A stretch of 12,104 nucleotides of DNA from Brachyspira pilosicoli (lineage in GTDB: Bacteria; Spirochaetota; Brachyspiria; Brachyspirales; Brachyspiraceae): NCBI RefSeq assembly GCF_019402445.1, contig NZ_SRZM01000047.1:1-12104 (forward strand), read 5' to 3'. Below the pieces are notes generated by a model. The model was not told where the DNA came from and did no database searches. It saw only the letters and a program-made list of their open reading frames with translations. Position 1 is the first letter of the stretch. Each line of letters opens with the position of its first letter. Below are positions 966 to 7,274 of the stretch, piece after piece. Both the position numbers and the translations under genes were made by a program.

Positions 966-1505
966 TCAATCTTCGTAAGTTTTGGTACTGTCATCTACAT
1001 GTATCTTATTTTTGTCATACACTATAGGAGCAATCTTTTCAAATAGTATAAACAACGGTGAAGAAAGTATTACTGTGAGAGGAAGACCTATAAATAATTC
1101 AGAACGCATAAGCACAGCAACACTTGATAAATCTGCATATATAGCCATTACAAAAAATAAAGCAATAATCTTTATTAAATACCCAATTAAAGTAACAAAT
1201 ATACCCGCTGCAATTTGCTTAATAAATATTCTGCTATTAAAGAAACCAACAACCAAACCAATATTAAGAAATATTATAGCATAAGAACCAAATGTAGAGC
1301 TAGAAACAATATCCTGCATTATTCCTATTAAAAAACCATATATAATTCCTTCAAAAGAACCATATCTAAATGATAAAAATACTAAAAATATAAGAAGCAA
1401 ATCAGGTTTAGCACCCAATGTTATTCTAATCAAATCATAAGCAGGAGAAGATTGTATTATTAAAAGGATTAATGAACTTATTATAACAGTTATTGCTCTT
1501 TTCAT
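966..1505 (-). CDS. mreD: rod shape-determining protein MreD
   Basis: A 179-residue integral membrane protein with about five hydrophobic helices. It has the MreD family pattern: a charged MKR start, a first helix, KPDLLLIFLVFLSFRYG near residue 35, GFLIGIMQDIVSSSTFGSYA near residue 60, and a hydrophobic C-terminal half ending in a charged tail. MreD works with MreC and MreB in the elongasome, which inserts lateral-wall peptidoglycan. Its start overlaps the mreC stop in an ATGA arrangement (1502-1505), a strong sign of translational coupling. It is the last gene of the minus-strand operon. The pbp2 and rodA genes that often follow mreD are not here. The family call is secure from topology, motif and position after mreC. 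Confidence 0.93.
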   Translation of the reverse strand: MKRAITVIISSLILLIIQSSPAYDLIRITLGAKPDLLLIFLVFLSFRYGSFEGIIYGFLIGIMQDIVSSSTFGSYAIIFLNIGLVVGFFNSRIFIKQIAAGIFVTLIGYLIKIIALFFVMAIYADLSSVAVLMRSELFIGLPLTVILSSPLFILFEKIAPIVYDKNKIHVDDSTKTYED

Positions 1506-2389
1506 TTATTTGTAACTTCACCCTCTTCATATTCTTCATTAGCAAGCATAATAATTTCTCTGTCTGGAATCTTTTTTATCACATACACATTCTCTAAAGT
1601 TGAAAAATCTACTATAGGCTCAATATATAAATCGTGAAAGAGTCCATAATTCTTTTTCTCAACTTTAAACACATTTCCAACCAATATTCCGCTTGGGAAA
1701 ACTCCACCCATTCCGCTAGTATAAACTTTTTCACCCTCTTCAACATCAATCTGCAAATCAATATACTGCAAATGTGTTTGAGTAGAACGAGGATTCTGCC
1801 CGCTCATAATACCAGTAGCCTTAGAACTTTCAAGCATAACAGATATCTGCGACCTTTCATCTATAAGAGATAAAACTCTGCTGTTGTACTTTCTCACTTC
1901 TACAACCTTACCAACAAGCCCCTTGTATCCGCTTTTATATGATATAACAGGCATACCCACAACAATACCATGAGCCCTTCCTTTGTTAATCACTATAGTG
2001 TTGTAAAAGTTTTGAGGGTCTTTTGAAACTATCTCAGCATATTCTAATGGGTATTCATCGGTTGGAGCTTCATTTAATAATGCTCTTAACCTTGAATTCT
2101 CCTGACGAAGCTGTTCATATTCTAAAGCTGTGCCGTTTAATTCTGCTATTCTATCTCTAAGAACTTGAAGCTGACTTTGAAGTGTAAATATATCTGTAAT
2201 GCTTGTATAAAGATAAACAAAAGCTTTTGATATATTTTGCGTAGCATTTTGTACAGGATATACACCGAGTGCATATATAGAACGTAAATCAAAAACAAAA
2301 TTACTCCTATTAAGCACCATAAATATTGACGCTATAAGACTAAGCGTAATATAAAGTATAAGTAATTTGTGTTTTAATATATTATTCAC
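1502..2389 (-). CDS. mreC: rod shape-determining protein MreC
   Basis: A 295-residue bitopic protein. It has a short cytoplasmic N-terminus, one membrane helix at about residues 8-26, and a coiled coil at about 67-108 (LQSQLQVLRDRIAELNG, then YEQLRQENSRLRALLNE). The periplasmic beta-rich MreC domain follows, with VSKDPQNFYNTIVINKG, GMPVIS, GLVGKVVEV, SRVLSLID and the late GEKVYTSGMGGVFPSGILVG motif. MreC scaffolds the elongasome and activates the PBP2-RodA synthase. The start is GTG, only 3 bp after the mreB stop, with no clear Shine-Dalgarno sequence of its own, so translation is probably coupled to mreB. Length and domain order are normal for the family. Confidence 0.95.
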   Translation of the reverse strand: MNNILKHKLLILYITLSLIASIFMVLNRSNFVFDLRSIYALGVYPVQNATQNISKAFVYLYTSITDIFTLQSQLQVLRDRIAELNGTALEYEQLRQENSRLRALLNEAPTDEYPLEYAEIVSKDPQNFYNTIVINKGRAHGIVVGMPVISYKSGYKGLVGKVVEVRKYNSRVLSLIDERSQISVMLESSKATGIMSGQNPRSTQTHLQYIDLQIDVEEGEKVYTSGMGGVFPSGILVGNVFKVEKKNYGLFHDLYIEPIVDFSTLENVYVIKKIPDREIIMLANEEYEEGEVTNK

Positions 2390-2392
2390 TTT

Positions 2393-3418
2393 TTAAGAAA
2401 ATCTTCTATAATTTTTTAAATTTCTAGTTTCTTCTATAAACTTACCGCATCCAATAGCCACACAAGTAAGAGGGCTCTCAGCAAGTATAACAGGAACACC
2501 AGTTTCTATAGATATTAAATCTGTAAAACCAGGAAGTAAAGAAGTACCACCACTCATAACAATGCCTCTCTCAACAATATCAGCAGCTATCTCTGGAGGT
2601 GTTTGATTAAGTACATATTTTACAGCTTCCAATATTTCAAGTAATATATCAGATATAGCATCTTTTACTTCAGCACTGTTAATAGTTAAAGTTTTAGGAA
2701 GACCAGATACAGAATCTCTTCCTCTTATATCCATAGTCTTAGATATATCACCCTTATAAGCATGACCAATATTAATCTTAATCTCTTCAGCAGTTTTTTC
2801 ACCAATATATAAGTTGTGAGTTCTTTGCATATATTTAATGATAGCATCATCAAGTTCATCACCACCCACACGTATAGAAGCACTGCGTACCATACTTCCA
2901 AGTGAAAGTACAGCAACCTCAGTAGTACCGCCCCCTATCTCTATAATCATATTACCATGAGGCTCATTAATAGGCATATCTGCTCCAATTGCAGCAGCCC
3001 TAGCTTGCTCTATTAAAAATATAGTTCTAGCTCCCGCCTGCTCGCAACTCTCACGTACGGCTCTCCTCTCAACTTCTGTAATACCTGTAGGAATACCTAT
3101 TGCAATTCTAGGCTTTACTAAAGTTTTTTTATTGTGAACTTTATTGATAAAATATCTTATCATCTTTTCAACAGTTTCAAAATCTGCAATAACCCCATCT
3201 CTCATAGGTCTAATAGCAGCTATAGAATTTGGTACTTTACCAAGCATTCTTTTAGCATCATTACCAACAGCTATCACATTACCAGTGCTTTTTTCTATAG
3301 CAACCACAGAAGGCTCTGCTAAAACAATCCCCTCTCCCTTAACATAAACTAAAGTATTTGCAGTACCTAAATCTATTCCCATATCACTTGAGAACATATT
3401 ATACAACCAACTAAACAT
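2393..3418 (-). CDS. mreB: actin-like rod-shape protein MreB, with substituted active-site residues
   Basis: A 341-residue actin-fold ATPase that assembles membrane-bound filaments and directs wall synthesis. The N-terminus [10 protein letters not shown] looks like the amphipathic membrane-binding helix. The phosphate-1 loop is DLGTANT (about residues 16-22), followed by [12 protein letters not shown]. The phosphate-2 loop is [12 protein letters not shown], and the adenosine region is [11 protein letters not shown] near residue 290. Two normally near-invariant features differ. The LIEEPMAAAIG segment reads [11 protein letters not shown], so Gln138 stands where the proposed catalytic Glu lies, and the adjacent Pro-Met is Ala-Arg. 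The phosphate-2 Asp is Glu160. The second catalytic candidate, Thr of GGGTT, is kept. A Shine-Dalgarno AAGGAG lies inside the 3' end of the upstream TPR gene, about 12 nt before the start. Identity is certain; ATPase competence is open. Confidence 0.97.
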
Positions 3419-4364: not shown

Positions 4365-4769
4365 TTATTGATTATTATTTGAAGAAGAGTTATATAAATT
4401 AAGTATAGTTTCTCTAGGATTAGTTTTAGGCTCAGGTGATACTATACAAACTCCTTCAAGTATAACACCATTTTGTATAATAAGCTCAGGTGTGCGAATC
4501 TCTCCAAGAACTCTGCTTGTAGGCATAAGCATCACTCTATTTTTTGCCTCAATATTTCCTATTACTATACCCTCTATAATAGCTGAATTAGTTTTTATAT
4601 TAGATTTTACCTTTCCGCTATTTCCTACAGTAAGGCTATCAACCTCAAGATTGTCACCTTCGTAACAACCATCTATTCTTAAACTACCATTAAGTGTAAA
4701 CTCACCTCTAAAATATGAACCTTCACCTATTATTGAATTTGATTCTGATATTTCATTCTTTCTAAACAT
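4365..4769 (-). CDS. bactofilin (polymer-forming cytoskeletal protein)
   Basis: A 134-residue protein with the bactofilin (DUF583) pattern. A short disordered N-terminus precedes IIGEGSYFRGEFTLNGSLRIDG, and the regular beta-helix repeats follow: GCYEGDNLEVDSLTVG, SGKVKSNIKTNSAIIEG, VIGNIEAKNRVMLMPTSRVLGEI, and TPELIIQNGVILEG. The tail is Asn/Ser-rich. Bactofilins self-assemble without nucleotide into filaments that localise wall enzymes or cell-pole structures; in Helicobacter and Leptospira they affect helical shape. The start codon overlaps the cheR stop by one base (TAATG) and is preceded by a strong Shine-Dalgarno sequence, so it should be well translated. Being between cheR and mreB in one operon suggests a shape role coordinated with MreB (inference). 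Confidence 0.93.
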   Translation of the reverse strand: MFRKNEISESNSIIGEGSYFRGEFTLNGSLRIDGCYEGDNLEVDSLTVGNSGKVKSNIKTNSAIIEGIVIGNIEAKNRVMLMPTSRVLGEIRTPELIIQNGVILEGVCIVSPEPKTNPRETILNLYNSSSNNNQ

Positions 4770-5599
4770 TAAAATACCTCCTCACTTTTAGTATATACAA
4801 TCGAATTATCTATATTATTAAATTTAAATTTCGTATCAAGTCCAAATAAAGACTCGCTATGCCCTATAAATAAAAATCCATGTTTATTTAATATATCATA
4901 AAATCTATTAACAGTCAATTTAACAGATTCATTATCAAAATATATAAGCACATTCCTACAAAAAACTATATCTATATTTAAATATCTATTATTTGGAGTA
5001 ATAAGATTATGATATTCAAAAGTAACCATACTTTTTACATCATCTTTAACCTTATATTTTCCATTAGGCATCTCATCAAAATATTTAGTTAAATACTCAT
5101 CACTTATATTAGTAACTTTATCTTTATCGTAAATTCCAATTTTTGCAACTTCTAACGATTGCATAGAAATATCTGTTGCATATATTTTTACATTATTTCT
5201 ATATAGATTTGGAGTTTCTAAACAAGTCATCGCTATGGAATATGGCTCCTCCCCTGTAGAACAACCAGAACTCCATATATATATAGGCTCTGAATATTTT
5301 TTATTATTCAATACTATAGGTAAAACTTTATTCTTTAATAAATTAAAATTACTCTCTGTTCTAAAAAATTTAGTAAGATTGGTTGTTATATTATCTAAAA
5401 ATAACTTTAATTCCTGTTTATCAGTAGAAACAAGATGAAAATAGTCCCCTACATTAAAAATATTTCTTTCCTTCATAGAAGACTCTATTCTAGATTCTAA
5501 TATTACCTGATTGATGAGATTAAAACGTATACCGCTTTTATTATAAATAAACTCCTTGAATAATTCTAAATATTCTTCAGTTAAACCATTATTACTCAA
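4769..5599 (-). CDS. cheR: chemotaxis receptor methyltransferase CheR
   Basis: A 276-residue S-adenosylmethionine-dependent methyltransferase that methylates glutamates of chemoreceptors for adaptation. The N-terminal helical domain carries ITTNLTKFFRTE (about residues 71-82), the CheR signature. The SAM-binding fold shows WSSGCSTGEEPYS (109-121), YATDIS (140-145), FCRNVLIYF (213-221) and FIGHSESL (244-251). Length and motifs are normal. The start is TTG at 5599; an in-frame TAA lies seven codons upstream and no ATG or GTG is available between them. The gap to cheY is 23 bp and no clear Shine-Dalgarno sequence is seen, which suggests low or coupled translation. Its partner methylesterase cheB is not in the window. 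Confidence 0.94.
   Translation of the reverse strand: MSNNGLTEEYLELFKEFIYNKSGIRFNLINQVILESRIESSMKERNIFNVGDYFHLVSTDKQELKLFLDNITTNLTKFFRTESNFNLLKNKVLPIVLNNKKYSEPIYIWSSGCSTGEEPYSIAMTCLETPNLYRNNVKIYATDISMQSLEVAKIGIYDKDKVTNISDEYLTKYFDEMPNGKYKVKDDVKSMVTFEYHNLITPNNRYLNIDIVFCRNVLIYFDNESVKLTVNRFYDILNKHGFLFIGHSESLFGLDTKFKFNNIDNSIVYTKSEEVF
4777..4783 (-). promoter_or_regulatory. strong ribosome binding site for the bactofilin gene
   Basis: GAGGAGG on the minus strand lies 7 nt upstream of the bactofilin ATG and inside the 3' end of cheR. It is the best Shine-Dalgarno match in the operon, so the bactofilin may be made in excess over its neighbours. Confidence 0.8.
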
Positions 5600-5622
5600 A
5601 TTAAAAATACCGTATTCTTAAA

Positions 5623-6039
5623 TCATTTCTTATCTAGAACCATTTTTATACGCTCTAGAACTTTCTTTCTATCCAAAGGTTTAGTAATATAATTTTTAGC
5701 ACCAGCAAGAAGTGCCTTTTTAACCATATCTTCTTTACCTAAAGCACTAACCATAACAACTTTAGCATTTTTATCAAACTCTATTATTTTAGTGAGAGCT
5801 GTAATACCGTCCATCTTAGGCATAGTAATATCCATAGTAACAACATCAGGCTTTAATTCTTTATACATCATTACGCCCTCTTCGCCGTTTTCTGCTGTTC
5901 CTACTACACTATACTGCTCTGATACCAATATTTGCTGTAATTGTTTCACTACAAATGCTGAATCATCTACTAATAAAACTCTAAAAGATTTACCAAACTC
6001 ATTTATACCATCTGCCACTTTTTTATTTATATCAGACAT
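5623..6039 (-). CDS. cheY: single-domain response regulator, CheY type
   Basis: A 138-residue receiver domain with no output domain. An extension of about 18 residues precedes FRVLLVDDSAF. Expected residues are present: acidic pair Asp25-Asp26, phospho-acceptor Asp70 in TMDITMPKMDG, Ser98 at the conserved Thr/Ser position (VMVSALG), and Lys120 in ITKPL. It should be phosphorylated by a CheA-type kinase and bind either the flagellar switch or another target. It is the first gene of a minus-strand cluster continuing into cheR, a bactofilin, a TPR protein and mreBCD. Its ATG has a good AAGGAG ribosome binding site 9 nt upstream (6049-6054). The CheY fold is certain; whether it controls the flagellar motor rather than the cytoskeleton genes behind it cannot be told from sequence. 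Confidence 0.9.
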   Translation of the reverse strand: MSDINKKVADGINEFGKSFRVLLVDDSAFVVKQLQQILVSEQYSVVGTAENGEEGVMMYKELKPDVVTMDITMPKMDGITALTKIIEFDKNAKVVMVSALGKEDMVKKALLAGAKNYITKPLDRKKVLERIKMVLDKK

Positions 6040-6272: not shown

Positions 6273-7274
6273 ATGATTAAACATACATTACTGTGCTTTA
6301 TACTTCTTACTATTATACTAAATGCTCAAAATACAAACTCTTTAGAACAAAAAATGGATAACTATTCACAAAAAGTAAAAACTCAGTGGAAATATAACCC
6401 TCTAAGAAATCCAGAAACTGATAAATACTTTTCAGGCTACGCAGACATAAATAACTACAACACAAAATTCTGGTTTGGAACAATATTTAATGCTAATAAA
6501 CTTTATAATAATAAAAACTTCACTATAGATAAAGTAATAATATTTCATAGCCCAACACTATCTACAGAATTAGCACCAATAGCTTTTAATATAAATGAAG
6601 AAACACATAGATTTAGAATAGGTGTAGCTTATTCTGCAAAGTTTAATTTTGCACACTATCAATACAAATACGACAAACTATACGGCACTAGTTTTTTATT
6701 TAGCACATATATGCAAGTAGAGGCGTATTTTGACTACATATTTAAAAATAAACTTAAAATAAGATTCGCTCCTTTAAAACATGTATGCTACCACATGGGC
6801 GGAGATATATTAGGAGATAATTCATTGCATAACAAGATAAATGATGAGTTTATAGATGTAGGCTTTGAACAGATGCATATTGCTGCATATTATAGATGGG
6901 GTTGGTTTTCTTTTTATGGCGGTACTCTATTTGCAATTACTGGTTTTAAAAAGTCTAATTTAGTTAATATATTTACTATATATGCAGGAAGTGATTTTAG
7001 ATTTCCTTTGTGGGGAGAGATGAATTTAATTACAGGATTTTATGTAGCTGGTGAATATGATGAGTTTAATAGAATAGATAGAAAAGCTGCTGGAGATGGA
7101 TATAATGCAATAGAATCCATTTATAAATGGTCGCCTTCTGTATCTGTAGCTTTAGGGCTAGAAATTTATAGATTTGCAATCGGCATTAAATACGAATATC
7201 TTCGCTCTAGACAGCTTTATGCTTTTAAAAAGATGGAAAGCAAGATTGGTTTAGAGGCTAGTTTATTCTTTTAA
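6273..7274 (+). CDS. secreted protein, probable outer-membrane beta-barrel (weakly DUF1207-like)
   Basis: A 333-residue protein with a clear signal peptide: positively charged residues 3-4, hydrophobic core 5-17, and probable signal peptidase cleavage after Ala18 in LNAQN. The mature protein is rich in Tyr, Phe and Trp in alternating strands and ends in Phe-Phe, as outer-membrane barrels often do. A central segment, VCYHMGGDILGDNS, followed about 30 residues later by SFYGGTLF, resembles the YHxSSHLGDE...YGG pattern I remember for DUF1207 proteins, but the match is partial. No enzyme motif is seen. It is transcribed alone from a consensus promoter, divergent from the cheY operon. Surface or barrel function is inferred, and the family assignment is tentative. 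Not a lipoprotein: the only early Cys (Cys8) is not in a lipobox. Confidence 0.75.
   Translation: MIKHTLLCFILLTIILNAQNTNSLEQKMDNYSQKVKTQWKYNPLRNPETDKYFSGYADINNYNTKFWFGTIFNANKLYNNKNFTIDKVIIFHSPTLSTELAPIAFNINEETHRFRIGVAYSAKFNFAHYQYKYDKLYGTSFLFSTYMQVEAYFDYIFKNKLKIRFAPLKHVCYHMGGDILGDNSLHNKINDEFIDVGFEQMHIAAYYRWGWFSFYGGTLFAITGFKKSNLVNIFTIYAGSDFRFPLWGEMNLITGFYVAGEYDEFNRIDRKAAGDGYNAIESIYKWSPSVSVALGLEIYRFAIGIKYEYLRSRQLYAFKKMESKIGLEASLFF

Follow-up and report, generated by a model that had tools for sequence, protein, structure and literature searches.

In the filament form of Caulobacter crescentus MreB (4cze, 4czj), residues E140 and T167 keep the attacking water in place, and E140 is also where the inhibitor MP265 binds directly (PMC4051119). 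Caulobacter cells with substitutions at E140 or D162 were reported to be viable and A22-resistant, E140G cells being straighter, and the Asp at the D162 position was said to be conserved throughout the actin superfamily (PMC3137890). The motif E...T-X-[D/E] was found in 95.8% of 4832 non-Spiroplasma MreBs (PMC9597168). For Spiroplasma citri MreB5, where E134 has been proposed to be the sensor of the ATP state, the rates per min were 0.15 for the wild type, 0.01 for E134A, 0.08 for D156A and 0.0005 for T161A, such that E134A was 15-fold and D156A about 2-fold slower (PMC9195046).

Spiroplasma eriocheiris has five MreBs, and its MreB3 (7e1c, 7e1g) carries Asp in place of E140, Lys in place of T167 and Ser in place of E169 (PMC9597168). 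In the same paper, phosphate release by MreB3 went up with D147E and was 1.2 nM/s at 3 uM when the Thr/Asp pair was restored together, and among Spiroplasma MreB variants deficient in hydrolysis, all but one had a critical concentration that was lower or similar. In eukaryotic actin the E140 position is occupied by Gln137 (PMC9597168, PMC3137890), and according to a 2026 review actin D154 has a part in proton removal via a bridge water in F-actin (PMC13310574). The Caulobacter partner of D154 is D162 by sequence (PMC3137890) but E169 in the review (PMC13310574); where the two disagree, we adopted the sequence pairing. The need for ATP hydrolysis by MreB in the shaping of walled cells is unsettled.

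The window, by which we mean the whole 12,104-nucleotide stretch of Brachyspira pilosicoli DNA that was analysed, carries an mreB gene in the following setting:

966..1505, minus strand: mreD (Pfam MreD, 43.5 bits), with a 4-base overlap with mreC
1502..2389, minus strand: mreC (Pfam MreC, 155 bits), starting 3 bases past mreB
2393..3418, minus strand: mreB, 341 aa, the single full-length MreB gene detected in the source genome
3424..4362, minus strand: gene of a TPR-repeat protein, directly upstream of mreB
4365..4769, minus strand: bactofilin (Pfam, 82.8 bits)
4769-6039, minus strand: CheR and a CheY-like response regulator, just upstream of bactofilin-mreBCD on the same strand

The mreB reading frame was intact, with 0 internal stops, and its product matched the MreB_Mbl profile PF06723 at 473 bits (cut-off 27). 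The closest named locus was L034 of Brachyspira pilosicoli PC5538III-hc, at 99% identity. The gene order mreB, mreC, mreD that is expected around an MreB was present, with mreC and mreD directly downstream. A predicted model of the protein (pLDDT 89.0, pTM 0.86) had TM-scores by query of 0.92 to 1jcf and 0.90 to 4cze, and every one of its 25 best PDB matches was an MreB or an Mbl (with integrative models in the top two places), which suggests an ordinary MreB fold. Based on this model, the adjoining mreC and mreD, and a RodZ-type domain that was present in 3 of 3 other family genomes searched and not found in the fragmented source genome, the window MreB is likely a working elongasome filament. 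We take the species tag BRAHW to stand for B. hyodysenteriae. MreB is listed under that tag in an exopeptidome table (PMC4955376), which indicates that Brachyspira MreB is made.

The residues at issue, together with two changes that mark the clade, are encoded as follows:

3005..3007, minus strand: codon 138, CAA, Gln; Caulobacter E140 and actin Q137 (actin pairing from PMC9597168)
2939..2941, minus strand: codon 160, GAG, Glu; Caulobacter D162
2918..2926, minus strand: codons 165-167, Thr-Thr-Glu; the retained Thr/acid pair, Caulobacter T167 and E169
3371..3373, minus strand: codon 16, Asp; retained, Caulobacter D16, the Mg-site Asp
3233..3235, minus strand: codon 62, GTA, Val; clade-marking change
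2894..2896, minus strand: codon 175, AGT, Ser; clade-marking change

An earlier note on this DNA had proposed that Gln138 (CAA, 3007-3005) and Glu160 (GAG, 2941-2939) replace Caulobacter E140 and D162 while Thr167 is kept. Both codons read as described, and aligning the window MreB to chain 4cze of Caulobacter with phmmer placed its residues 138, 160 and 165 at chain positions 133, 155 and 160, which an offset of +7 (our own reading of the construct) converts to native E140, D162 and T167, so that the equivalences hold and the retained threonine is window Thr165. The note was looser in taking LIEEP as the usual MreB reading, since many spirochaete MreBs read LIEEA and the Ala after Gln138 is therefore not unusual. 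Compared with the canonical E...T-X-[D/E] motif, the window protein has Gln138 in place of the Glu and matches at Thr165 and Glu167, and it reads as an MreB without the full motif. We take the D162 position to be the phosphate-2 Asp of the actin superfamily; the window MreB has Glu160 there instead. The remainder of the Caulobacter-type site (equivalents of Asp16, Thr165 and Glu167) was shared with the window protein and was close to universal, with Thr165 in 496 of 498 MreB rows, an acidic residue (Glu or Asp) at 167 in all 498, and Asp16 in all 490 rows having a letter there.

At the two clade-marking sites, MreBs outside the clade had mostly Thr at 62 (459/463; Val in 2) and Gly at 175 (450/467; Ser in 6). 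Val62 adjoins Lys61. If a constant offset of 4 applies, Lys61 would be Lys57 of S. citri MreB5, a residue that makes a contact within the protofilament and whose mutation lowers ATPase activity (PMC9195046). Val62 may possibly be tied to a contact of this type.

The search for these residues covered 31 genomes of the class. Gln138 and Glu160 occurred together in all 29 genomes of the Brachyspira family, which span three genera; this recurrence, with varied codons, rules out a sequencing or assembly error. The two further genomes of the order differed, one having Gln138/Asp160 (L033) and the other (G159) being without MreB. A first tally over 111 MreB loci, which holds some genes twice under different locus ids, gave Glu/Asp in 65, Gln/Glu in 45 and Gln/Asp in 1. 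Within the phylum, 343 genomes had an MreB match, and the sites were read in those whose loci were fetched. Glu/Asp was found in all loci read from the two families taken as those of Treponema and Borrelia (24/24 and 12/12), in Leptospira interrogans, Leptonema illini and Turneriella, and in one Chlamydiales and one Elusimicrobiota protein. It was also the state of P0017, P0021 and P0109, which have 72-78% identity to the window MreB.

The widest tally covered 498 distinct MreBs (190 rows from loci and 308 from protein searches), with breadth beyond Spirochaetota coming from protein hits of mixed origin. It contained 433 Glu/Asp, 31 Gln/Glu, 13 Ala/Asp, 11 Gly/Asp and 10 Gln/Asp proteins; spirochaetes and relatives of a single Brevinematia query are overrepresented among the rows, so that the shares of Ala and Gly should not be taken as population frequencies. 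Seven chimeric-looking or overlong rows that had Glu/Asp where read (P0018, P0022, P0024, P0057, P0123, P0125 and P0126) were dropped before counting, as were 12 rows outside 250-430 residues, including the Gln/Glu clade fragments P0023, P0122 and P0124.

Outside the Brachyspira clade, 34 of the 467 distinct MreBs had Gln, Ala or Gly at site 138, all of them with Asp160 retained. Ten of the 467 rows combined Gln138 with Asp160, and three of these ten belong to the order of Brachyspira. Site 160 was Asp in 467/467 and Glu in 0/467, such that Glu160 was in no MreB examined outside the clade. Within each group site 160 was invariant, and Glu160 was always on a Gln138 background (31/31). Thirty-five columns were invariant in the 467 outside MreBs (gaps aside, at least 95% filled), and column 160 was the only one replaced throughout the clade; among these 35, column 77 varied in one clade row of 30 and column 273 in eight of 31. 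The first reading, then, appears right on the sites, but it had treated Gln138 and Glu160 alike, and the cross-species alignment that it called for separates them: Gln138 recurs in other MreBs that keep Asp160, and Glu160 alone is exceptional. It is Glu160 that would seem to deserve attention. An additional search with residues 127-172 against a protein database showed no Gln138 or Glu160 outside the clade among its 120 best hits, although this search was insensitive, as it did not list P0019 and P0020, two relatives with Gln/Asp. A Brevinematia MreB query later found Gln, Ala and Gly at 138.

The earlier note had also suggested looking for a second mreB, and none was found in the source genome (463 contigs, 98.5% complete), where PF06723 matched mreB and two other frames, whose 647- and 425-aa products look like DnaK and FtsA. 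Each of the 29 family genomes had one match to the window MreB at E 1e-20 or better. In five family genomes searched with PF06723, including the source, the other matches were of DnaK or FtsA length, one genome having a DnaK-length match alone. A normal second MreB serving as a backup is thus ruled out in the source genome (463 contigs) and, at E 1e-20, in the other 28 family genomes. Eleven genomes of the genus had an extra weak MreB match of 286-298 aa that was not seen in the source genome; the two of these that were read proved to be EutJ (372.8 and 373 bits, cut-off 182) with the usual Glu and Asp kept. EutJ-family proteins of 279 and 294 aa were met as weak MreB matches in two same-genus genomes (L288, L289). 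A single full-length MreB was likewise detected with PF06723 in each of six genomes with Gln, Ala or Gly at 138.

For the history of the two sites, a tree was built from 71 of 397 rows with columns 138 and 160 removed. Its 21 Gln/Glu rows formed one clade, and site 138 required five changes and site 160 one (branch support 100/99). A clean path from Glu/Asp through Gln/Asp to Gln/Glu was not upheld, since the tree joined the Gln/Asp and Glu/Asp relatives (support 99/72, branch 0.012). A single origin of Gln was not rejected by the AU test (p 0.483), and Gln138 would have had either one origin and a reversal, or two origins. Among 29 distinct clade genes, the codons were CAA in 9 and CAG in 20 at site 138, and GAG in 11 and GAA in 18 at site 160. 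Compared with the window mreB, dN/dS was 0.011-0.064 in 25 of 26 comparisons (one of these values rests on a dS of 4), the remaining comparison having saturated dS, and both residues were kept through a dS of 0.77-1.15 in 19 of the 26. These values indicate that mreB of the Brachyspira family is under strong constraint, and the synonymous codon variation and low dN/dS argue that Gln138 and Glu160 are maintained by selection at the protein level. General drift of actin-fold proteins was not seen in DnaK of the order, whose matching Glu and Asp loops were usual in 7/7 genomes read, nor in EutJ (2/2).

The FtsA of six of six Gln/Glu-clade genomes read (L003, the source genome, and L274 and L276-L279) had DIGHSTTS at its phosphate-2 loop, so that this clade has, besides MreB, another wall-associated actin in which that loop is unusual. 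Four other spirochaete FtsAs had D[IV]GGGT[TI]D, and two order relatives had DIGAATTS and DIGGSTTT. We did not use this difference as support because Glu at that site was absent in three aligned FtsA chains too.

The bactofilin that the earlier note placed in the mreB operon is real by its Pfam match. The order cheY-cheR-bactofilin-TPR-mreB-mreC-mreD was present in 13 of 15 Gln/Glu-clade contigs of the contig set, the remaining two being cut by contig ends, and in 3/3 additional Gln/Glu-clade genomes. A tblastn scan with a Brachyspira bactofilin query (E 1e-4) found none near mreB at 65 non-clade loci, although such a scan would miss divergent bactofilins or ones past short flanks. The Gln/Asp relative (L280) had TPR-mreB-mreC-mreD, with the TPR-repeat gene again next to mreB and with no bactofilin, CheR or CheY within the 9 kb read. 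As Glu160 and the bactofilin each appear once, on the same part of the tree, no link between them can be claimed. On the plus strand of the window, a 333-aa frame (6273-7274) was without a Pfam match.

Based on these observations, our preferred reading, to which we give a probability of roughly 0.5, is that the single Gln138/Glu160 MreB of the Brachyspira family likely binds ATP and polymerises, with a predicted slow hydrolysis and phosphate release and longer-lived filaments. Its ATP pocket has Gln138 where the Glu that positions the water would be, and Glu160 in place of the Mg-site Asp. In the proposed mechanism, Gln138 would fix the attacking water in the manner of actin Gln137, with a weaker coupling to Mg than Glu, the longer Glu160 would shift the water shell of Mg, and Thr165-Glu167 would still accept the proton. 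The net effect would be an ATPase that is slowed and not dead, and with slower phosphate release the subunits may stay longer in the filament. Total loss of hydrolysis is unlikely because Thr165 and Glu167 are present and Gln can hold water, and a lower rate is likelier than a normal one because the carboxylate is gone at 138 and the Mg-site carboxylate is longer at 160.

Slow hydrolysis is plausible by analogy with mutants in which the same two positions are changed, namely the A22-resistant Caulobacter E140A/G and D162G and S. citri MreB5 E134A and D156A. However, these laboratory mutants have Ala or Gly, whereas the clade has conservative replacements fixed by evolution, and the alanine mutants are a harsher change than Gln/Glu. 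Natural losses of the catalytic Glu are seen in the MreBs with Gln, Ala or Gly at 138 (of Brevinematia, the Gln/Asp order relative and others), all of which keep Asp160. The Spiroplasma critical-concentration data fit stable filaments only indirectly. The window MreB is also predicted to bind A22 poorly, since MP265, a relative of A22, contacts E140 in Caulobacter MreB. Searches of the open-licence literature found no publication on MreB E140Q and no report of Brachyspira MreB substitutions, D162E not being among the search subjects. To our knowledge, no MreB mutant carrying E140Q or D162E has been published.

The expectation of a lower rate has to be set against eukaryotic actin, which works with Gln at this site, so that Gln need not slow hydrolysis. 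It is conceivable, if somewhat unlikely in our judgment, that the pocket was rebuilt along actin lines, with Gln138 positioning the water and Glu160 taking the carboxylate role of Glu140, giving a near-normal rate by altered chemistry. The likeness at Gln137 (PMC9597168, PMC3137890), the sequence pairing of Caulobacter D162 with D154 (PMC3137890), a residue that aids proton removal (PMC13310574), the strong constraint on the clade and the restriction of Glu160 to a Gln138 background would all suit such a rebuilding. The pairing of D154 with E169 in the review (PMC13310574) means that the chemistry may not transfer, and an actin-type site (Gln137, Asp154 and His161) is matched at Gln138 but not at Glu160 or Glu167, the counterparts of Asp154 and His161 when paired by sequence (PMC3137890). 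In addition, Glu160 arose once, such that its link to Gln138 is not statistically testable, and Gln138 persists elsewhere with Asp160. Since other lineages keep Gln, Ala or Gly at 138 with Asp160, Glu160 is not required to offset Gln138. The broader proposal of a re-engineered actin site, which would combine an actin-like, Gln-positioned water and a phosphate-2 Asp-to-Glu change with different chemistry, persistent filaments and inborn indifference to A22 in the lineage whose mreB shares its operon with bactofilin, CheR and CheY, we consider unlikely.

The five changes that site 138 needs on the tree and the Gln, Ala or Gly there in 34 of 467 outside rows could also be taken to mean that MreB works without fast hydrolysis and that the spirochaete pocket drifts, the changes being near-neutral; Caulobacter strains with pocket substitutions can indeed have a normal doubling time (PMC3137890). 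We find this relaxed pocket quite improbable in the Brachyspira family, as both residues were kept over considerable synonymous divergence at low dN/dS and site 160 never varies inside either group.

The earlier note had pointed to Spiroplasma MreB3, which likewise has a substituted catalytic centre and comes from a helical bacterium. The parallel is a weak one: a Glu at the first site raised phosphate release in MreB3, which agrees with the note, but MreB3 has Asp, Lys and Ser at E140/T167/E169 and four sister MreBs, whereas the window protein keeps Thr and Glu, is changed at E140/D162 and is the one MreB of its genome. With Gln, Thr and Glu it does not have the Asp, Lys and Ser/Thr that define the MreB3 class. 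Two pocket residues important in other MreBs are changed, yet a dead scaffold like MreB3, with ATP bound in static filaments and no hydrolysis, is very unlikely given the intact Thr/acid pair, which MreB3 has lost, and the absence of a partner MreB in the genome for turnover, compared with the five of S. eriocheiris (PMC9597168).

The Gln/Glu state is of interest because all members of a family carry it in a strongly constrained MreB that has no second copy beside it. The natural graded series of Glu/Asp, Gln/Asp, Ala/Asp, Gly/Asp and Gln/Glu MreBs bears on how much catalysis MreB needs, and a natural Asp-to-Glu change at a superfamily-conserved position is a test of the role of that Asp. As the ATP pocket is also the A22 site, these states bear on where MreB inhibitors should work.

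Several MreBs outside the clade were of note in their own right. Ala at the catalytic Glu position was seen in L165, L173, L183, L184, L205, P0225-P0231 and P0233; some of these proteins bear the label Brevinematales or Brevinematia, and the genomes of L165, L173 and L205 had one full-length MreB each. The 11 MreBs with Gly at this position and Asp160 were P0262-P0265, P0267-P0269, P0271, P0274, P0275 and P0278. In the genome of the order that was without MreB (G159; 98% complete, 5% contamination; L245, L256), there was no MreC match either and the RodZ domain had a weak match alone (E 3e-4), so that G159 is apparently an elongasome-free member of the order. In the family of genomes G324 and G356, 19 of 21 genomes had no MreB match at E 1e-10. 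G324 (L287, 4242-7371) and G356 had three tandem divergent MreB genes; those of G324, a genome with no MreC match, were 38-39% identical to the window MreB. This tandem arrangement is reminiscent of the multiple MreBs of Spiroplasma.
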